From positions 372,001-436,000 of the forward strand of contig SOEU01000001.1 in NCBI GenBank assembly GCA_021646415.1: a stretch of 64,000 nt of DNA, read 5' to 3'. Below the pieces are notes generated by a model, which ran no database searches, had not been told where the DNA came from, and saw only the letters and a list, made by a program, of their open reading frames with translations. The translations under genes and the position numbers were made by a program. Position 1 is the first letter of the stretch. Every line of letters begins with the position of its first letter. Source of the stretch: Candidatus Brocadia sp. Lineage in GTDB: Bacteria; Planctomycetota; Brocadiia; Brocadiales; Brocadiaceae. Below, in pieces: positions 33,941 to 54,193 of the stretch.

Positions 33941-34306
33941 ATGAGAAAAAAAATACTCATTATAGAAGATGAAGAAGAGTTTTTCTTCTTTTATGAAACA
34001 ATGCTGGAGGATAGAGACTATATCATCCTGCACGCAACCGAAGGAATGCATGCTTTTGAGTTGCTAAAAAAAGAAAATCTGGACCTCATCATTCTGGATT
34101 TATTACTCGATCAAATGTCGGGCGATGAATTCCTCAGGCAACTGAGATTAAACCCTATGTATACTACTATTCCAGTCATTATTGCAAGCAATTTTTCACC
34201 ACGGTCGTATAAAACAATATTTGAGATAGATCCAAATCTGATTTTTCTTGAAAAACCTTTTACCCAAGAAAGATTGCTTGCCGAAATCAGAGCCAAGTTG
34301 GGGTAG
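33941..34306 (+). CDS. Single-domain response regulator (CheY-like)
   Basis: A 121-residue receiver domain only: acidic pocket in IIEDEEEFF, phospho-acceptor Asp in LIILDLLLD (about residue 50), the switch Ser in IIASNFSPR and conserved Lys in FLEKPF. There is no output domain and no kinase gene next to it, so it probably acts by protein-protein contact. It is divergent from the Rieske gene; the 250 bases between hold only AT-rich sequence. Confidence 0.9.
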   Translation: MRKKILIIEDEEEFFFFYETMLEDRDYIILHATEGMHAFELLKKENLDLIILDLLLDQMSGDEFLRQLRLNPMYTTIPVIIASNFSPRSYKTIFEIDPNLIFLEKPFTQERLLAEIRAKLG

Positions 34307-34335: not shown

Positions 34336-37098
34336 TTAATAACTGGGGAATAGACTTATTGCCAACTCTTTGCCATAAAATTTCACTTTAACACTTTTAC
34401 TATTACAAAATTTAAGATCTTCAATTTCGTCCAACCTTATTCCCGCTAATTTATTTTGTATAATGCCTTTTATTTGATTTTCCATTTCCCCTAATCTTAC
34501 CTTTTCATTTGCCGTTAAATTTTTGGAGAGAATAATTTCTTCGAGAATTAATCTGTCAAAATCTCTTCCCTTTTTTACCCTTTTGACGAACTCCAACTCT
34601 CTTTCGCCCAATTGTAAAGGCAATTGTTTTAAGAGATTTTTGACTTCATCAATTACAGTTTCAACTGTACTAATAAATTGAAGTTCTCCAAAAATATCCT
34701 TAATTGTAGCCTTTAAATAATCATAGTGTGTACAAGCCAGACAGATATGTGATATTTTATTGCGTGTAATAAATTCTTCCAGATTTGCCTGAATTATTTC
34801 CCTTGCAATCCTTAAAAACTCTCTTTGCATTTCTTCCGTATCAAAACTCTTTTTATACAACATTTCAGATAACACGGCCAACAAAGGGGTAGGCTTAACA
34901 ATAACGCTGTATCCGGCTTCTCTTATAAGTTTTTCATAGATGCCGCTTTTTATTGTTCCTGTGGTGCCAATAACGCCTATTTTAGTTTCCGGAGGCAATT
35001 TTTTAATTTTCGCTATGGTATTTTGCACTGGGCCAATAAACCGTATATGTGGAAACCTTTTTCTCAGCCTGCGATGGTCGACTAAAGTGTCCACAGTATT
35101 ACAGGCAAAGCAGATGATGATGTCCCTGGAAACTCCTCCTAATTTCACGAGTAAGCGTTTCATCAGATACGGTGTTTTATCAAACACTTTGTTGAAAAAT
35201 GCATTTGATTTTTTTGTGTTTCTACACCGTTCGTTTATTTCGGAAATAGCCTGTAATGTTATTTTATTTATTTCGTCTTGAGTTTTTTGACCAAATGGAA
35301 AATTTGCTTTGTCTGTAAGAAGCAAAAGTTTTATGTTACCTTCGGAAAGCATTTTATTTAATTTCTCTGCCACAATAATACCACCCTGACCGGAATCAAA
35401 AATTCCAATAATTACGGGTTTTTTTTGGACTTTTTTTGTCCTTTGTAAATATTTCGCATCTATTGTACTGACAATCCTTTTTATAGCTACCACGTCTCCA
35501 GCTAAAGACATATCCATACCGTGCTTTTCCACTTGATTCTTAATAACGTTATTTTTTAGAACATTCTCTACCCGTGCCATAATATCTTCAAAAACATACT
35601 TCTTTTCCCATGTATCATTTTGAGCATTTTGAATTTTTTCCAGATATGAAGCAATGATTCCACCAGATTTTGCAATGGAATCACTTACAACCATTTTTCC
35701 ATTTTCCCTTAGAATATGATATCCTTCCTGAGTAATTCCACCATTAACTGCAGAAATAACGTAGTTAGCTTGAATATTGAAAGCATTGTAAGCATCAATT
35801 TGATTTTCTAAAGCTGCTAGAAAAAGGATATCAGCATTTTCTTTTAATAATTGGCAAGGATCTTCATATATTTTTGCCTCTTCAAACATACAAATACTGT
35901 CGCGTTTTTCTTTACATTCAACTAATGCCGGTATGTTTAATCCCGGAATATTGTAAATGGCTACCATCTTCTTTTGTTTCTGGTCATATTCACTTACTGC
36001 TATAACTTTCGCACCCGTTAAGGTAAAGTATTTGGCTGCATTGAGACCTACTTTTCCAAAGCCCTGGACAGCAACAGTTTTTCCCTCCAAATAATTTTTC
36101 CGTTCCCTTCCAACTCTTAGCTTTAAATAATCTTCAGGATTTTCATTATACCACACTAATAAATTTGTGATTTCTACTGCTGCAAATGCCGTTGCTTCTG
36201 TTCTGCCTTCCAAACCACTATATGTTTTAGATGTAACTGCCCCTAATTCGGGAACGCTTTGTTTTCCATCCCCATATTTTCTTGCCTTCTTTGAGAATTC
36301 ATCCGCCACCTTTAAATACGGCATTCCCGATGTCCATATAATCTCAGAATCCCTTATATTTTTTAATCTTTCCAAAAGTCCTTTTTCCTTAATTTCTTCC
36401 GTTTCTGCTAATGCCCTAAAATGCCCGTCCGCCATTGCATCCATCATCGTTTCGTCCGTTCCAAAATCTGGTCCCGGAGAATATGTATTATGCCCCATAA
36501 TGCCTTCCATCGTAAGTAAATAGCCTATTTCTCTAAACAACCTCTGTTTTTCATCATTTGACAATTCAATAGATTGCAGAGACATCTCTCCATTGATTTC
36601 TCTCAATTCTCCCAAGAAAACTCCACATATACCACCTCCTAACGGCAAGGAATAAAGTGCCAGCTTTAATGTTGTTACGATAGAGAGGGCTTCAATCTCT
36701 TCTGTCACCCATTTACAGCAAAACTTCCATGTTTCTTCGATGGAAGCCTTTCGGTCTCTGAGGCTATTAAAGGTTTTAAAGAAATCTCTCCCCAAGATTT
36801 GCGGGGAAATGAGTATTGCGCCTCCCTTCGGGGGACCAAGGGCAGTATTGTGAAATATAACAGATGAATACAAGACTATCTTTTGTCCATTATCCTTACA
36901 AAACTCTACATGTCTTTTCCAAATGCTCTGAGGTTGTTTGAGCAGAGCGAATAGTTTGTTACAATTTTTATAAAATACAGGATCTTTTTTCTTTATTGCA
37001 TCTATGGCTTCATCAAGCCGATTATGAATACTCTTCAATAGCGTATTCGTAATTTCTCGTTTCTTTAACCGAAAAGAAGAATAAACAAAAACATTCAT
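34336..37098 (-). CDS. Glutamate-dehydrogenase-like domain fused to glutamate racemase (MurI)
   Basis: A 920-residue two-domain protein. Residues about 30-555 follow Glu/Leu/Phe/Val dehydrogenases: substrate loop GPPKGGAILISP with K91, D211 in GPGPDFGTDE, Rossmann motif GFGKVG (347-351) and the late VNGGITQEGY. The catalytic-lysine motif reads LPLGGGICGVFLG (151-163) where GDHs have GG(A/G)KGG, so the catalytic Lys is missing. Residues about 560-835 match MurI with D568-S569, C666 in ACNT and C789 in ACTH, so racemase activity is likely. The last 85 residues are unassigned. Taken together: D-glutamate supply with the dehydrogenase domain altered or regulatory. Confidence 0.85.
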   Translation of the reverse strand: MNVFVYSSFRLKKREITNTLLKSIHNRLDEAIDAIKKKDPVFYKNCNKLFALLKQPQSIWKRHVEFCKDNGQKIVLYSSVIFHNTALGPPKGGAILISPQILGRDFFKTFNSLRDRKASIEETWKFCCKWVTEEIEALSIVTTLKLALYSLPLGGGICGVFLGELREINGEMSLQSIELSNDEKQRLFREIGYLLTMEGIMGHNTYSPGPDFGTDETMMDAMADGHFRALAETEEIKEKGLLERLKNIRDSEIIWTSGMPYLKVADEFSKKARKYGDGKQSVPELGAVTSKTYSGLEGRTEATAFAAVEITNLLVWYNENPEDYLKLRVGRERKNYLEGKTVAVQGFGKVGLNAAKYFTLTGAKVIAVSEYDQKQKKMVAIYNIPGLNIPALVECKEKRDSICMFEEAKIYEDPCQLLKENADILFLAALENQIDAYNAFNIQANYVISAVNGGITQEGYHILRENGKMVVSDSIAKSGGIIASYLEKIQNAQNDTWEKKYVFEDIMARVENVLKNNVIKNQVEKHGMDMSLAGDVVAIKRIVSTIDAKYLQRTKKVQKKPVIIGIFDSGQGGIIVAEKLNKMLSEGNIKLLLLTDKANFPFGQKTQDEINKITLQAISEINERCRNTKKSNAFFNKVFDKTPYLMKRLLVKLGGVSRDIIICFACNTVDTLVDHRRLRKRFPHIRFIGPVQNTIAKIKKLPPETKIGVIGTTGTIKSGIYEKLIREAGYSVIVKPTPLLAVLSEMLYKKSFDTEEMQREFLRIAREIIQANLEEFITRNKISHICLACTHYDYLKATIKDIFGELQFISTVETVIDEVKNLLKQLPLQLGERELEFVKRVKKGRDFDRLILEEIILSKNLTANEKVRLGEMENQIKGIIQNKLAGIRLDEIEDLKFCNSKSVKVKFYGKELAISLFPSY

Positions 37099-37836: not shown

Positions 37837-38349
37837 CTATTTTGCAACTTTGTAAGCAATAACGTTTACTATTTCTATTTGATATGTTTTATTGAGGTCC
37901 TGTATACCGATGGCTGCACGAGTCGGACATGATTTAATAAACTCTCGATACACAGCGTTCATATCACCCCAGTAATCCATATTTTTAAGAAAAATGATCA
38001 TATTTACAATTCGATTTAAATTTGATCCCATGCTCTCTAATGCTTTTTTCAGGTTTGAAAAAACTAATCTAAATTGCTCTTTTTGGTCTAAAGACGGCAC
38101 TTCGCCTGTAGAATCAATAGGAATAAAACCACCACAACGTATTTGTGTTGCACGTACCTTAACAAATCTAACAATATCTTCCTCAAAATAATCACTCATT
38201 AATCCTATTTGTCTTTCCGGTTGTTTTCCAACGTTTCTCAAGGCGTCTTTAATTATCAAATCTAATAACTTATTTCTGTCTTCAAAAGATAACTTATGTG
38301 CTGCTTCAATCGTCATTCCGTCTAAATCAGCCAATGTTATATCTGCCAT
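37837..38349 (-). CDS. RidA/YjgF/UK114-family enamine/imine deaminase
   Basis: About 170 residues with the RidA trimer fold in the C-terminal two-thirds: FSNLKKALESMGSNLNRIVN, IIFLKNMDYWGDMNAVYREF and SCPTRAAIGIQDL, which carries the substrate-binding Arg, and IEIVNVIAYK with the conserved Glu. RidA proteins hydrolyse reactive enamine/imine intermediates released by PLP and flavin amine enzymes. The N-terminal 45 residues (helical, ERQIGLMSDYF) are extra. The ATG at 38349 has AGAGGA upstream. It lies downstream of the FMN enzyme but behind a terminator at 38433. Broken RidA fragments lie at 51125-51590. Confidence 0.88.
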   Translation of the reverse strand: MADITLADLDGMTIEAAHKLSFEDRNKLLDLIIKDALRNVGKQPERQIGLMSDYFEEDIVRFVKVRATQIRCGGFIPIDSTGEVPSLDQKEQFRLVFSNLKKALESMGSNLNRIVNMIIFLKNMDYWGDMNAVYREFIKSCPTRAAIGIQDLNKTYQIEIVNVIAYKVAK

Positions 38350-38432
38350 TTTGTCCTCTTTCAAATGAATTAAAATACCGTTCTAAAATAGATACGCAAA
38401 TAATCCGTTAAATTCCGGAATCATTCACCAAG

Positions 38433-38480: not shown

Positions 38481-40058
38481 TTAAGCATCTAAGACTCTTT
38501 CGGCTTGTTCCATATCATAATCCATAATATATGTAATACCTGTTACATCCGTCGCTTCCCTGGTTAGCGTGAAGATATCGTTGCGTGTTATGTTGTTAAT
38601 TGACCACCTTCTTGAACCAGCCATAAGTTGCTTCAATCCTGTTGCCAATCTTTGATAATAAGAATACATGCCCATAGCGCCTGCAGGAATATTGCCAAAT
38701 TGCTCTTTAATCTTCCCTGAATAATAAAAGATTTGATCATTTGATGACCCATATTCCGAAACAGGTTTTGGTACTTTGCCTTCTGCAACAGCTTTACCAA
38801 TCGTATTTCCAACCATAGCTGCACAGATGGTTGATCTGGACATTCCCACTGCTTTTATGAAAGGAGATAAAAGGGCAAATGCCTTGTAAATATGATCTTC
38901 TGAAACCAAACCACCCGCAAGTACGATATTAGGAACATACTCACCGCGGTCTGCTAGGCGTTTACAATATTTATATGTTAACGCAGCAATATAAACCGTA
39001 GGCAAACCCCATTCATTCATCATGCGCCAAGGGCTCATTCCTGTACCACCACCAGAACCGTCAATTGTTAAAACGTCTATTCTGGCCCACGAAGCGAATT
39101 TAATTGCTCGTGCTAAGTCAAAAGGTCTGTAAGAGCCCGTCTTCAAAAAGATATATTTAGCCCCTGCATCACGCAAATGTTGCACATTATCCATAAAACC
39201 ATCAAACGCTTGTGCCATAGCATCCGGAATGGCACAAATCCGTGTATGTCTTTCAAAACCTTTAATTGTACCGTTCTGAAAAGCTTGTTGTGTTATTGGG
39301 TCTTCTGGATCAGGGATGACAACATACCCTAACTTTTTTAATCGGATCGCCTTTTCAATGGAGGTTAATTTAACCTCACCACCAATATTTTTAGCGCCCT
39401 GTCCCCATTTTAATTCGAGGGCATCACTTCCTAATTTTTCTAAACAATACGGCAATACGTCAAGACGCCAATCTTCCTGATTTGCTTGTATTGCAATAAA
39501 TCCATAGCCGTCTTTCTGGTAATCCTTAAATGATTTAAAACGTCTGACTAATTCAGGACTATTTGCGACTTTACCATCCGTGATTGTTGATTTATCGTCC
39601 ATTGCTGCCACATTTTCGCCAATAACGATACCAGAACCGCAGATCGCAGCGCCAATTCCTAATGATTCAAAGTGCTTCTGGGCAATCATAGTTGACCCAA
39701 GACCTGTACAAATTATAGGTATTCGTAATTTAAGACCTCCATCGCGCCCCATAGAAGTTTCAATGCTTGCGTTTGTGAAAAGGTCATATTCTTTCTGATG
39801 GTGCCCGGTAATTGAACCAGTAATATTAAAATGGGAAAAATCAACAGGGTAATCTTTTTGTGCTGCTGCGGTTACCTCGCCAAACGGGCCAGGATAAATT
39901 GCCTCTGAACCTCTGTAAGCCGATTTCCCAATTTCACAAAAGCCTGGACAACCATCCAGACACGTAACACACATACCACTTTGAGGCAAAACTTCATCAC
40001 CCAACCGAGTCCATGTACCCGTAGCCCGCGATCTGTTTGGAATAAACAATGAGCTCAT
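38481..40058 (-). CDS. FMN-dependent glutamate-synthase-like protein
   Basis: A 525-residue protein like the FMN (synthase) domain of glutamate synthase. It has a TIM-barrel core (IICTGLGSTMIAQKHFESLG, ELKWGQGAKNIGGEVKL with the KxGQGAK loop, VLTIDGSGGGTGMSPW, IVLAGGLVSEDHIYKA). The N-terminus carries four Cys (CVTCLDGCPGFCEIGKSAYR) that could bind a cluster. The usual 3Fe-4S Cys set (CxxNxCPVG) is absent from the C-terminal part, and there is no glutaminase domain, so ammonia or another amine donor is likely. Good AGGAGG-type start. Its neighbours RidA, MurI and the di-iron protein suggest amine chemistry. Confidence 0.85.
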   Translation of the reverse strand: MSSLFIPNRSRATGTWTRLGDEVLPQSGMCVTCLDGCPGFCEIGKSAYRGSEAIYPGPFGEVTAAAQKDYPVDFSHFNITGSITGHHQKEYDLFTNASIETSMGRDGGLKLRIPIICTGLGSTMIAQKHFESLGIGAAICGSGIVIGENVAAMDDKSTITDGKVANSPELVRRFKSFKDYQKDGYGFIAIQANQEDWRLDVLPYCLEKLGSDALELKWGQGAKNIGGEVKLTSIEKAIRLKKLGYVVIPDPEDPITQQAFQNGTIKGFERHTRICAIPDAMAQAFDGFMDNVQHLRDAGAKYIFLKTGSYRPFDLARAIKFASWARIDVLTIDGSGGGTGMSPWRMMNEWGLPTVYIAALTYKYCKRLADRGEYVPNIVLAGGLVSEDHIYKAFALLSPFIKAVGMSRSTICAAMVGNTIGKAVAEGKVPKPVSEYGSSNDQIFYYSGKIKEQFGNIPAGAMGMYSYYQRLATGLKQLMAGSRRWSINNITRNDIFTLTREATDVTGITYIMDYDMEQAERVLDA

Positions 40059-40175: not shown

Positions 40176-41121
40176 ACTCAATTTTCAAAATCAACTAAAA
40201 TTGCTTGCCCTCTCCAAACCATTCCACAATACACCCCTTGTGTTAAGAAAACTCATAGCTCCCTTCCTAATCCTCGCCTGATCCTCATCTGTCTGACTGC
40301 AGAATTCTAATGATTTTCTTATATTCGCAGCATGCTCAACATCCAATTCAATATGGGCGGAGAAAAACAGAACATCATCGTCACTTAAACCGGCATGTTT
40401 CAATCCATCACGAATAGGAACATACATTGTTGGAACGATGAATTCTGTTCCTGGTCCCAGCGCTCCCAACGCTTCAACATAATTCATATAATGAATATTT
40501 AAATATTTCTCTACAAATAACTCCGTTTCCGGCAACATCTGAATGTTGTCTAATGCCTTTTTGGAGGTATCAACACCTACGGCTTTTAAAAACCTGCGGA
40601 AAAGAGCGGGGTGCGTAAGCTCAGGATTCATGCCTTTCTGTTCTTCAGATCTACCACCATACTCTTCAAACAAATTTTTAATTAAAGGCGCCCTCCCTGC
40701 TTCATCAGGGCATATTGCAACGGCGCCGGCCAGATATCGAGAAAAATGCCTTGAGAAACAATAATATTGTTCAGCATAAAGTTTAGCAGCCTTCTTATCT
40801 GCCTTTTTACTGAATTTTTGTAAATATGAATGATTTTTTACTGCCGGATGCTTCAAAATCTCCGCTTCCAATTCATCATAAAATACATCTACAGACTTGG
40901 CCATAATTCTTTCCCTCCAAATAATTAAAAATCACTTATACGTAAAATTTACATTTCCTCTACTGTTACAGTGTCTTGGAAATAACCCTTCCCCCTTTCC
41001 ACCCATTACAATTTTTCAAAAAAATATTACCGTATAAAATCACTTCCCTATATTCCTTGTGTTCCTTTTATTTATGTTTTTCTCAAGGTCTTAACATTAT
41101 TGCAAATATTTCTGCTTTACC
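40176..41121. repeat. 946-bp near-identical repeat, copy A
   Basis: It covers the whole di-iron oxygenase-like gene and about 215 bases upstream. The partner is 51594-52540 (offset 11,418). By direct reading the coding sequence is identical in both; upstream they differ at two bases and one T in a homopolymer. Identity stops abruptly at both ends. On the right the boundary lies in the last codons of the PAS gene. Confidence 0.9.
40191..40904 (-). CDS. Haem-oxygenase-like di-iron oxidase (HDO/CADD/PqqC-like), copy A
   Basis: A 237-residue all-helical protein of the iron-containing redox enzyme (TenA/PqqC/CADD) fold. Likely metal ligands are E80/E81 (NLFEEYGG), H98 (ELTHPALFRRFL), E144 (YVEALGALGPGTE), H184, D188 and H191 (AHIELDVEH). 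The H-x3-D-x2-H spacing equals that of CADD, which makes p-aminobenzoate from tyrosine. Related enzymes also oxidise fatty acids, so the substrate is unknown. An O2-type di-iron enzyme in an anammox context is notable. The identical copy lies at 51609-52322. The gene has GGAGGG-like sequence before its ATG. Confidence 0.82.
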   Translation of the reverse strand: MAKSVDVFYDELEAEILKHPAVKNHSYLQKFSKKADKKAAKLYAEQYYCFSRHFSRYLAGAVAICPDEAGRAPLIKNLFEEYGGRSEEQKGMNPELTHPALFRRFLKAVGVDTSKKALDNIQMLPETELFVEKYLNIHYMNYVEALGALGPGTEFIVPTMYVPIRDGLKHAGLSDDDVLFFSAHIELDVEHAANIRKSLEFCSQTDEDQARIRKGAMSFLNTRGVLWNGLERASNFS

Positions 41122-41507
41122 GAAATATCGTTGCCCTCTCTGCCAACCAGAACAACGCCTTGAACATTTTTGAGTCTATTGTAAATAGGATATGTTTTTA
41201 AAAGGACAGGCATACACGTCTCTGGATTTAAAACCTCGCTGGTTGCCGTTTTACCCGTCTTTAGCGTTTGCCAAATCGGGCAATTTTTGCAAGCAAGCGC
41301 AAACTTGTGTTTCGTAGAAAAACACTTTTTTCCTACCGGGTACCCTGTAAAAAACACTTTTGCAGCCGTGTTTATCTTTACGATATTGAATTCTGAATCA
41401 AAAACAATTATAGGATCCATGGTAGAATTAAATATATAATCAGATACCATCGTTATCTTATTAGAAAAAAGTTTCTTTTGATGTGTCTGCATACTTCCAA
41501 CATCCAT
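41097..41507 (-). CDS. Small PAS-domain sensor with Cys cluster
   Basis: A 136-residue PAS protein: MVSDYIFNSTMDPIIVFDSE, NIVKINTAAKVFFTGYPVGK, and a Cys-rich stretch C...ALACKNCPIWQTLKTGK (about 74-95), a pattern common in redox-sensing PAS domains where it may bind a metal or Fe-S cluster. There is no output domain. The last eight codons lie inside the 946-bp repeat, so the second copy of the repeat carries the tail (VKQKYLQ) of this gene without the rest. Start at 41507 behind AGGAAG. Confidence 0.75.
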   Translation of the reverse strand: MDVGSMQTHQKKLFSNKITMVSDYIFNSTMDPIIVFDSEFNIVKINTAAKVFFTGYPVGKKCFSTKHKFALACKNCPIWQTLKTGKTATSEVLNPETCMPVLLKTYPIYNRLKNVQGVVLVGREGNDISVKQKYLQ

Positions 41508-43647: not shown

Positions 43648-44340
43648 CTAACACTCCCTTATTATTTCGAACTCATACTTATGCAAACAATCCTCTGAAC
43701 CACCAGCAATAGTCCGTTCCAATTGATAATTTATTGCAGGATCTATTCCTTTTCCAAACCCGGCAATCCATGAGTTTACATAATTACAAAGAATCGTAAA
43801 AGATGCTCCCGCCTTGTCCCAATTCTTTTTGTGAACGCATTCGATATGGTCCCAACTGGTATTTTCTGCCGATTCCGTGACAACCTGTGTCCCACGATCG
43901 CATGGCATCCCATCTAAATGATAATCACCCAATAACTCGAATACCTTAACCGTAGTACAGGTACTCGAATCGAGATGTTTTTCCCTGGCTGCGAGTTTCC
44001 CGTAGTTCATGCCGTGTTCTGATGCAGATATATTAATGACGTCAACCGCCTTTTTACCGAATTCTGCCACAAAGGCAGTAATAATCGCCGCCTCTCTTGT
44101 TTCAATAGTATTGATAAGTCCCACAATACCTGGATGTAAAGCCTTCTCCCTGATAAGTTCTTCCAAAGAGGCTTTGGTAAAATCGGTCTGGGGAAATTTC
44201 ATATAAACAGGCTGGAGTATCTCTCCTGCGTCAGAACCAAATTCTCTCTTAAGCACTCCTGTCAACGCCATCTCTCGTGCTTCAGCAATTTTGATCTTGT
44301 TAAATTGCCAATGATGAATTGGACCGAGCACTAAACCCAT
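43648..44340 (-). CDS. L-2-amino-thiazoline-4-carboxylate hydrolase-like family protein
   Basis: A 230-residue protein. The C-terminal half shows the family pattern SWDHIECVHKKNWDKAGASF, a central LCNYVNSWIAGF and TIAGGSEDCLHKYEFEI, with conserved Cys residues. I assign it to the ATC hydrolase family (PF14196-like) from these motifs. The N-terminal half (GLINTIETREAAIITAFVAE) is helical. In this operon it may bind a cofactor or act on an electron-carrier-related substrate; the true reaction is unknown. Good AAGGAGG start. Confidence 0.6.
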   Translation of the reverse strand: MGLVLGPIHHWQFNKIKIAEAREMALTGVLKREFGSDAGEILQPVYMKFPQTDFTKASLEELIREKALHPGIVGLINTIETREAAIITAFVAEFGKKAVDVINISASEHGMNYGKLAAREKHLDSSTCTTVKVFELLGDYHLDGMPCDRGTQVVTESAENTSWDHIECVHKKNWDKAGASFTILCNYVNSWIAGFGKGIDPAINYQLERTIAGGSEDCLHKYEFEIIREC

Positions 44341-49946: not shown

Positions 49947-51092
49947 TCAAAATGATATCCTGATATCATTCTTGGCGGAGTCAATGGGTTGTTGTTTATT
50001 CTTTGCTTTTTCGGCAAAAAAGTTTTCATATACTAATCCGGCGAGTACACCACCAGCAATAGGGCCAAGCCACCAAATATAATGGTTATCAAAATGGCCG
50101 GACGCTAATGCAGGCCCAAACACGCGTGCTGGATTCATCGAACCGCCACTAATTGTGCCTCCAACCATAACTCCGAACAAAACTACCAAACCGATAGCCA
50201 ATCCGGCTAGGGCAGGGGTTGCCCTTTTGTCGATCACTGTTGCATATACTACAAAAACCAGAAAAAACGTTATTACTGCTTCCATAATGATAGCTTGTAA
50301 TATTGTAACTCCTGAACCAAGGGTGCATGTCCCCAGATTTACTGCCATCGCCGCGGGAAAAAGCATTTTCAACAAATACCCGCCCAATATAGCCCCTCCT
50401 AATTGCGAGACAATATACAGGAATCCCGTTTTCGCATCCATCCTGCTTGAAACAACCATGGAGATTGTAACCGCGGGATTGATATGAGCACCGGATACAT
50501 AACCGAATGCATATGCAATAGCAACCACAACAAAGCCGAATGCAACAGCAATTCCAAGCAGTCCAAATCCTTGAGAACCGGATTTTACTAAATAGTAGTC
50601 GGCGCACACACACCCCGCCCCAACAAAAATCAGAGCAAACGTTCCCAGAAATTCTGATATATATTTCACGGCATTGCTCATGATGCTGGCTCTCCATAAG
50701 CTAAAAATGACACCCAATAGAATAATCGTCGGGATCAATAGCCATGCCAATGCTGTTTGTGTTTTTTCAGGTTGCTGCCGTGTAGCAGATGGCAGCTCGA
50801 AGAGTTTGAGTTGATCATTCCAATCAATTATTGGCAGCGATACATGGCTCATTTCAGATTCATTTTGCACTGGAGACTGCAATCCTGACAAAGGTTCTCC
50901 TTTCTCGGTGGATTTTCCAGTCTCTGACATGGGTTTTTTATTTGTCACGTTCGTTTGAGCTTGGAGACTATGAGTAAATAACCCAGGCATAGACCATTCC
51001 ACGACATAAACGAAAACAGCGATCTGTAGTGCCATTACAATGTAAAAACAACCCCGTACAGACATGAAGTTACGCAAAAAATAGTTCCACAT
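49947..51092 (-). CDS. Aquaporin (MIP family) with long N-terminal extension
   Basis: About 381 residues. A canonical MIP fold occupies about 150-370 with both pore motifs, GAHINPAVTISM and GGSMNPARVFGP. The position that is His in water-selective aquaporins (AQP1-like ALGHLLA) reads LFGVMVG, a hydrophobic residue as in wider or archaeal AqpM-like pores. The first about 145 residues are unusual: one TM helix (CFYIVMALQIAVFVYVV), a polar linker with EKGEPLSGLQSP, then another TM (LAWLLIPTIILLGVIFSLW). Possible substrates include water, ammonia or glycerol-size solutes. The ATG at 51092 has GAGGTGAT upstream; an in-frame GTG three codons earlier is possible. Confidence 0.88.
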   Translation of the reverse strand: MWNYFLRNFMSVRGCFYIVMALQIAVFVYVVEWSMPGLFTHSLQAQTNVTNKKPMSETGKSTEKGEPLSGLQSPVQNESEMSHVSLPIIDWNDQLKLFELPSATRQQPEKTQTALAWLLIPTIILLGVIFSLWRASIMSNAVKYISEFLGTFALIFVGAGCVCADYYLVKSGSQGFGLLGIAVAFGFVVVAIAYAFGYVSGAHINPAVTISMVVSSRMDAKTGFLYIVSQLGGAILGGYLLKMLFPAAMAVNLGTCTLGSGVTILQAIIMEAVITFFLVFVVYATVIDKRATPALAGLAIGLVVLFGVMVGGTISGGSMNPARVFGPALASGHFDNHYIWWLGPIAGGVLAGLVYENFFAEKAKNKQQPIDSAKNDIRISF

Positions 51093-51124
51093 ACATATCA
51101 CCTCACATTTTATTTTTTATGAAC

Positions 51125-51593: not shown

Positions 51594-52540
51594 ACTCAAT
51601 TTTCAAAATCAACTAAAATTGCTTGCCCTCTCCAAACCATTCCACAATACACCCCTTGTGTTAAGAAAACTCATAGCTCCCTTCCTAATCCTCGCCTGAT
51701 CCTCATCTGTCTGACTGCAGAATTCTAATGATTTTCTTATATTCGCAGCATGCTCAACATCCAATTCAATATGGGCGGAGAAAAACAGAACATCATCGTC
51801 ACTTAAACCGGCATGTTTCAATCCATCACGAATAGGAACATACATTGTTGGAACGATGAATTCTGTTCCTGGTCCCAGCGCTCCCAACGCTTCAACATAA
51901 TTCATATAATGAATATTTAAATATTTCTCTACAAATAACTCCGTTTCCGGCAACATCTGAATGTTGTCTAATGCCTTTTTGGAGGTATCAACACCTACGG
52001 CTTTTAAAAACCTGCGGAAAAGAGCGGGGTGCGTAAGCTCAGGATTCATGCCTTTCTGTTCTTCAGATCTACCACCATACTCTTCAAACAAATTTTTAAT
52101 TAAAGGCGCCCTCCCTGCTTCATCAGGGCATATTGCAACGGCGCCGGCCAGATATCGAGAAAAATGCCTTGAGAAACAATAATATTGTTCAGCATAAAGT
52201 TTAGCAGCCTTCTTATCTGCCTTTTTACTGAATTTTTGTAAATATGAATGATTTTTTACTGCCGGATGCTTCAAAATCTCCGCTTCCAATTCATCATAAA
52301 ATACATCTACAGACTTGGCCATAATTCTTTCCCTCCAAATAATTAAAAATCACTTATACGTAAAATTTACATTTCCTCTACTGTTACAGTGTCTTGGAAA
52401 TAACCCTTCCCCCTTTCCACCCATTACAATTTTTCAAAAAAATATTACCGTATAAAATCACTTCCCTATATTCCTTATGTTCCTTTTATCTATGTTTTTT
52501 CTCAAGGTCTTAACATTATTGCAAATATTTCTGCTTTACC
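51594..52540. repeat. 947-bp near-identical repeat, copy B
   Basis: Partner of 40176-41121. Contains the second di-iron gene, its upstream region and the last codons of the PAS gene. To the right, homology to the sequence upstream of copy A resumes at about 52550-52803 but at clearly lower identity. Confidence 0.9.
51609..52322 (-). CDS. Haem-oxygenase-like di-iron oxidase, copy B
   Basis: The protein is identical in all 237 residues to that encoded at 40191-40904, with all six candidate metal ligands, so both genes may be expressed. It has no FMN enzyme downstream; instead a RidA C-terminal remnant follows. The 5' flank and the palindromes at 52617-52663 are kept, so regulation may be shared. 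Confidence 0.82.
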   Translation of the reverse strand: MAKSVDVFYDELEAEILKHPAVKNHSYLQKFSKKADKKAAKLYAEQYYCFSRHFSRYLAGAVAICPDEAGRAPLIKNLFEEYGGRSEEQKGMNPELTHPALFRRFLKAVGVDTSKKALDNIQMLPETELFVEKYLNIHYMNYVEALGALGPGTEFIVPTMYVPIRDGLKHAGLSDDDVLFFSAHIELDVEHAANIRKSLEFCSQTDEDQARIRKGAMSFLNTRGVLWNGLERASNFS

Positions 52541-53377: not shown

Positions 53378-54193
53378 TTAAAAATTAAAATTTACTTCAG
53401 CCACTTCTTCATCAATGCCCAATTTCTTTATAATAGACTCAAACAATTTTTTATCTTGGGAAACGATGATCCGAAAGTATCCAGCGCCCTTTTTTTCAAT
53501 ATTATTTTCTCTCAAATATACCATGACTTTTTTTGCAATTATTTCTGCAGGATCAATAAAACAAACGTCAGGTCTTAATGAGGAAAAGTAGTTCTTGAGG
53601 AATGGAAGGTGAGTACTGGAGAGAGTCATCGTATCTATATCTGCATCAATTTCTGCCAATTGTTTCAACTCCCTTTCTATTATTAATCGACTTTTTTCTT
53701 TCTCTAACAAAAAAGAACCCGATTCAACCAGTTCTACCATTGGAGATGCATTAAATTTTGTAATCTTTATAGTCGGTGGAATTTTTTTTGATTTTATATA
53801 CTCTTCTAACTCCGGACTTTCTACAGTACTGCGGGTAGCTAAAATAGCGATATGACCTGTTTTTGAACAATCCACTGCCTCTAAAACCGGAGGAAATACA
53901 CCAAATATTTTTGTGTCACTCGTTTTTATTTTATGAAGGACCTGAATAGACGGTGTATTGGAGGCAATTACAATAAGTTTAGGACAAAATTGCTCAGTAA
54001 GATATCCAATGGTGTTTTGAATAATATGGAGTAAATCATCATGCTTTTTTTGACCATAAGGGAAATGTTTTTTATCAGCAAGATAAATGTAATTTTCACA
54101 AGGAAGATAACGTCTCAATTCTTTGATTATTGAAATACTGCCAATCCCAGAGTCAAAAACTGCTATTGAGGACTCACTTTTTAAATGTTCCAT
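53378..54193 (-). CDS. Glutamate-racemase-like protein lacking both catalytic cysteines
   Basis: A 271-residue protein of the MurI/aspartate-glutamate racemase fold: VFDSGIGSISIIKELRRYLP with the conserved DSG, ADKKHFPYGQK, then IASNTPS (S78 where MurI has Cys in ACNT) and LSSTHLPF (S193 where MurI has Cys in GCTH). Racemisation needs both cysteines, so this is not a normal glutamate racemase; it could bind glutamate or be a regulator. A GDH-MurI fusion with both cysteines is encoded at 34336-37098. The start ATG at 54193 gives MEHLKSESS. Confidence 0.82.
   Translation of the reverse strand: MEHLKSESSIAVFDSGIGSISIIKELRRYLPCENYIYLADKKHFPYGQKKHDDLLHIIQNTIGYLTEQFCPKLIVIASNTPSIQVLHKIKTSDTKIFGVFPPVLEAVDCSKTGHIAILATRSTVESPELEEYIKSKKIPPTIKITKFNASPMVELVESGSFLLEKEKSRLIIERELKQLAEIDADIDTMTLSSTHLPFLKNYFSSLRPDVCFIDPAEIIAKKVMVYLRENNIEKKGAGYFRIIVSQDKKLFESIIKKLGIDEEVAEVNFNF

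Follow-up and report, generated by a model that had tools for sequence, protein, structure and literature searches.

A glutamate dehydrogenase-like domain without its catalytic lysine is joined to a glutamate racemase-like domain in anammox Brocadiales

Which function is left to a glutamate dehydrogenase (GDH) that has lost its catalytic lysine and is fused to a glutamate racemase (MurI)? This question is raised by a gene in a 64,000-nucleotide stretch of DNA of a Candidatus Brocadia sp. (contig SOEU01000001.1), which is called the window here. Pfam domains were assigned to the gene product at residues 56-224 (ELFV_dehydrog_N, 7.6e-11), 334-545 (ELFV_dehydrog, 8.5e-37) and 662-816 (Asp_Glu_race, 1.6e-12). 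Thus, a GDH dimerisation domain is followed by an NAD domain, both with Pfam matches above cut-off, and then by the racemase part. The fusion and its parts are located as follows.

34336-37098 (-), GDH-like/MurI fusion protein, an open reading frame of 920 amino acids with an ATG start and without internal stops
36349-37059 (-), N-terminal part of GDH domain I (residues 14-250), ELFV_dehydrog_N-like, with K91, K145 and D211 retained
36619-36639 (-), GGGICGV (residues 154-160) at the site of the canonical GG(A/G)KGG, the catalytic Lys being replaced by I157
35599-36228 (-), GDH NAD (Rossmann) domain (residues 291-500) with GxGxxG, missing in the short forms described below
35449-35598 (-), C-terminal helices of GDH domain I (residues 501-550), retained in the short forms despite the loss of the Rossmann domain
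34618-35415 (-), MurI domain (residues 562-827) with D568, S569, PFG at 601-603, C666-N-T and C789-T-H
34339-34617 (-), C-terminal tail (residues 828-920), conserved in the long forms and apparently related in the short ones

The full-length protein (long form) was found in six genomes including that of the window (64-100% identity; 59 close relatives searched). In a second family of the order, frames of about 720 amino acids, newly reported here, matched the query in its N-terminal GDH portion and in MurI. From this short form the NAD domain has been excised, whereas GDH domain I is retained in both of its sequence pieces, the N-terminal one and that with the last helices. An order-wide search detected the fusion in 20 of 62 Brocadiales genomes, the long form in 6 of 33 Brocadiaceae and the short form in 14 of the 17 genomes of the second family (f4), which probably represents the Scalinduaceae; it was absent from the remaining families of these 62 genomes. 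Hydrazine synthase alpha was found in both fusion-bearing families, which marks them as anammox bacteria. The alpha subunit encoded in one long-form genome (G020) did not visibly differ over 675 residues from PDB entry 5c2v, the hydrazine synthase of Kuenenia stuttgartiensis, and this genome was assigned to K. stuttgartiensis on the basis of this match.

Across 392 planctomycete genomes, strong scores were obtained only in Brocadiaceae and f4, and the other, weak ones apparently stem from ordinary GDHs. No plasmid record covered 80% of the fusion. A common architecture, which the database search proposed in the earlier note might have revealed, is thereby ruled out for Planctomycetota and plasmids; other phyla were covered by one pattern scan of genome contigs, sensitive to close relatives only. 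Among the 392 planctomycete genomes, the fusion is a conserved family confined to anammox Brocadiales. An assembly or binning artefact was ruled out as well, the long form being present in six genomes and the short form in 14, with one of the genomes consisting of a single contig. One short-form gene (G050:C39:23149-24814) is distributed over two open frames of 254 and 473 amino acids, due to either a frameshift or an assembly error. The N-domain profiles of long and short forms matched each other with 80-110 bits, compared to 9-42 bits for canonical GDHs, and the MurI parts of both forms clustered in the tree (96/80), albeit on long branches. The simplest reading would be a single fusion event, after which the short lineage lost the NAD domain.

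For the GDH half, the functional residues K89, K113, K125, D165, R205 and S380 of the Clostridium symbiosum enzyme served as reference. K91, K145, D211 and S484 of the fusion are equivalent to K89, K113, D165 and S380, respectively, and R299 (cf. R205) is retained; all five are present in the six long forms. The role of the Asp (D165) in GDH is treated in PMC12018205. The long form thus resembles GDHs of the ELFV type (RocG of Bacillus subtilis, 3k92; C. symbiosum, 1bgv) in having both domains and most residues of the glutamate site, but the catalytic Lys (K125) is replaced by Ile in the window protein, by Met in its five orthologues and by Ser or Cys in all 13 short forms aligned. Further differences to these GDHs are additional segments within domain I and ahead of the NAD domain, the missing NAD domain in the short form and the connection to MurI. 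The alignment with RocG is ungapped across the GGGICGV segment and places I157 at the position of the catalytic Lys. As a Lys moving in from elsewhere had been considered in the earlier note, a gapped multiple alignment was inspected as well; the Lys column reads N/N/D/N/K/R, with K in only one of six sequences, so that no conserved Lys enters the active site from another position. The GxGxxG motif is intact in five of six long forms, including the window protein, and carries Asp at the second Gly in K. stuttgartiensis. In the short forms, the ligands of the glutamate site are mostly gone except for the Asp; the equivalents of K113 and S380 were lost in all of them and that of R205 in all but one. 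As predicted from the lost Lys, the GDH half should be unable to perform normal oxidative deamination. Two ordinary GDHs are encoded elsewhere in the genome of the window, both with GGAKGG.

The racemase half shares with MurI (TIGR00067; Asp_Glu_race, PF01177) the two catalytic cysteines within Cys-Asn-Thr and Cys-Thr-His motifs. D568, C666-N-T and C789-T-H are invariant across 19 sequences (6 long and 13 short forms). The claims of the earlier note about retained residues, i.e. K91, D211 and the Rossmann motif in the GDH half and D568, C666 and C789 in the MurI half, were all borne out, as was the loss of the catalytic Lys at GGGICGV; the racemase part appears intact. The Asp-Ser motif of MurI is present in the fusion, with Ser replaced by Thr in the short form. 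At the substrate loop P-Y/F-G, the long forms read PFG and the short forms LGG. Glutamate racemase gave the best profile matches for this part; the TIGR00067 scores (87.9 bits for the long and 96 bits for the short form) are below the curated cut-off of 146.65. Unlike MurI, the fusion carries the N-terminal GDH half and an extra C-terminal tail, and the long form has an insertion of about 30 residues ahead of the first Cys.

For N-domain, Rossmann and MurI parts alike, pairwise dN/dS ratios (Nei-Gojobori) were approximately 0.05-0.28 and mostly 0.07-0.2; linkers and some very close pairs accounted for most of the higher values. The N-domain contains many invariant residues. All parts of the fusion are under purifying selection; low ratios in the GDH parts together with the lost Lys indicate that the GDH half is maintained, though not as a dehydrogenase.

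The fusion is the sole MurI-type protein with both cysteines in K. stuttgartiensis and the other Kuenenia-like genomes (three in total), in which TIGR00067 matched only the fusion and a MurI paralogue with both cysteines replaced by Ser (Ser/Ser MurI). It is also the only TIGR00067 match in 11 of 12 short-form genomes tested, the remaining one (G035) harboring an additional normal MurI. The genome of the window encodes a normal MurI besides the fusion, and 27 of 33 Brocadiaceae lack the fusion. MurD is present in all relatives, and peptidoglycan is present in K. stuttgartiensis (PMC4432595), which together with the racemase inventory makes the previously suggested link to D-glutamate for peptidoglycan a reasonable one. 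Class-IV aminotransferases resembling D-amino-acid aminotransferase, scoring below cut-off, are encoded in nearly all relatives, so the fusion need not be the sole source of D-glutamate. In the Brocadiales families f2, f3 and f5, MurD was found but no convincing MurI (TIGR00067), apart from one weak match with an internal stop in G036; D-glutamate must have another source there. Hydrazine synthase is encoded in most f2 and both f5 genomes.

The long fusion is part of a gene module with further putative functions in glutamate metabolism. Its genes and other relevant neighbours in the window are listed below.

33941-34306 (+), stand-alone response-regulator receiver, convergent with the fusion and adjoining it in G031 and G032 too
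37837-38364 (-), RidA-family protein (Ribonuc_L-PSP), module gene
38481-40058 (-), FMN glutamate-synthase-like protein (Glu_synthase), module gene
40191-40904 (-), Haem_oxygenas_2 protein, module gene, first copy
49947-51101 (-), MIP-family channel, located between ridA and the fusion in the relative G032
51609-52322 (-), Haem_oxygenas_2 protein, second copy, within a 947-bp direct repeat (99.7% identity)
53378-54193 (-), MurI paralogue with Ser in place of the two catalytic Cys

The order Haem_oxygenas_2, FMN glutamate-synthase-like protein, RidA and fusion is shared by the window, G032 and two Kuenenia-like genomes. In K. stuttgartiensis the fusion lies apart from the module, and the short forms have a gene context different from that of the long form. 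Copies of the Glu_synthase-like gene with at least 90% and orthologues of the Ser/Ser MurI were each present in exactly the six long-fusion genomes and in none of the 27 other Brocadiaceae (Fisher p ~1e-6, ignoring phylogeny, for genomes from three genera). The Ser/Ser MurI scores above the TIGR00067 cut-off and would receive an automatic annotation as glutamate racemase. Its motifs read ASNT and SSTH, both Ser are invariant in the six genomes, and it is under purifying selection (dN/dS approximately 0.06-0.18 where measurable). In G031 it adjoins the Haem_oxygenas_2 gene in divergent orientation, and its 5' end is located at the same place in G032.

With regard to the function of the fusion, we see about an even chance that it is a cofactor-independent glutamate racemase in which the former GDH is retained for a non-catalytic task. 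Its activity as a racemase, the substrate used and the roles as a scaffold and for the cell wall are inferred: C666 and C789 would serve as the bases in the interconversion of L- and D-glutamate, D-glutamate formed by the fusion would supply peptidoglycan, and the GDH half would most likely act as an oligomerisation scaffold. Domain I of GDHs forms the interface of the GDH hexamer. The scaffold idea draws on such general knowledge, the structure predicted for the fusion by AlphaFold2 with three close sequences as input having a pLDDT of 32. In the long form, the GDH half may additionally bind glutamate or 2-oxoglutarate and thereby tune the racemase. A more active part, in which glutamate, 2-oxoglutarate or NAD(H) bind allosterically to the long-form GDH half and switch the racemase according to nitrogen status, appears rather doubtful. 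It would fit the equivalents of the glutamate-site residues K91, K145, D211, R299 and S484 in all six long forms, the mostly intact GxGxxG, the purifying selection on the Rossmann part and the further glutamate genes of the module, but not the Asp in the NAD motif of K. stuttgartiensis or the short form without NAD domain and most substrate ligands. The earlier suggestion of glutamate sensing is therefore conceivable for the long form and does not extend to the short one. Its furthest extension is unlikely: the dead GDH as a built-in nitrogen sensor with the Cys-less MurI as partner subunit, cell-wall D-glutamate being set by the glutamate/2-oxoglutarate pool, and Scalindua-type cells having kept the scaffold only.

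The substrate may not be glutamate, given the TIGR00067 score below cut-off and the short form without the P-Y/F-G loop. We hold it improbable that the racemase acts on another substrate or that the module handles reactive imine or N-oxygenated 2-oxoglutarate adducts, e.g. from anammox hydroxylamine or hydrazine. According to a review (PMC8142540), MurI can convert N-hydroxy-glutamate to an imine by elimination, and an excess of Asp/Glu racemase protects Salmonella against aminoacrylate stress; RidA, the FMN glutamate-synthase-like protein and a haem-oxygenase-like iron protein as neighbours of the long form would be in line with such a role. The different gene context of the short forms and the best profile matches to glutamate racemase argue against it. 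A remaining redox step in the GDH half that feeds the racemase, by a slow dehydrogenase or imine reductase activity, is very improbable. D211, K145 and the NAD motif persist in most long forms, but the catalytic Lys is missing in every member, K. stuttgartiensis has a damaged NAD motif and the short form has no NAD domain, which also disfavours the channelling of glutamate from dehydrogenase to racemase that was proposed in the earlier note. Highly unlikely, too, is a GDH half drifting as baggage without any role: the stepwise loss of GDH residues and then of the NAD domain would be expected in this case, but all domains show dN/dS values of about 0.1-0.2, which contradict it, as do the many invariant N-domain residues. 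As a racemase with a retained non-catalytic GDH, the family would be a rare series in which a metabolic enzyme is deprived first of the catalytic Lys, then of the substrate ligands and finally of the whole NAD domain, with the fused partner staying conserved. If this reading is correct, the fusion is the likely source of cell-wall D-glutamate in K. stuttgartiensis and most Scalindua-type anammox bacteria, a source that the paper on its peptidoglycan (PMC4432595) leaves unnamed in the main text.

In the open-licence literature, to which the search was confined, no description of a GDH-MurI fusion was found, in line with the earlier note. For K. stuttgartiensis, two GDHs, KSMBR1_1085 (gdh_1) and KSMBR1_2236, and the glutamate-synthase homologues KSMBR1_1164 and KSMBR1_3563 have been listed (PMC7438415). 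In G020, the two glutamate-synthase-like genes are located at 1257.8 and 3851.8 kb. The fusion lies at 1166 kb and a normal GDH (GGAKGG), the only GDH-like locus besides it, at 2445 kb. By linear interpolation of the locus tags, the fusion would be numbered around 1079 and the normal GDH around 2262. Hence, gdh_1 is probably the fusion. It is described as an ammonium-assimilating GDH in PMC7438415, whereas the sequence of the fusion is that of a non-catalytic GDH with a racemase, and the number of functional GDHs ascribed to K. stuttgartiensis would need correction.

The module of the window is divided. Each unit of a 947-bp direct repeat (99.7% identity; 40176-41121 and 51594-52540) carries one Haem_oxygenas_2 copy, and the units flank a segment of about 10.5 kb that encodes ferredoxins, a multihaem cytochrome and the MIP channel; the Ser/Ser MurI gene is located near the second copy. 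A recent duplication or insertion appears to have interrupted the module. Two neighbouring proteins (43648-44340 (-) and 41097-41507 (-)) had no Pfam match at E <= 0.001. Between the genome of the window and its g10 relatives, dS was 0.40-0.44 for the fusion and the neighbouring response regulator, compared to approximately 1.3 for the normal MurI. This suggests lateral transfer within the family, in which the fusion and the response regulator (33941-34306) probably moved together.
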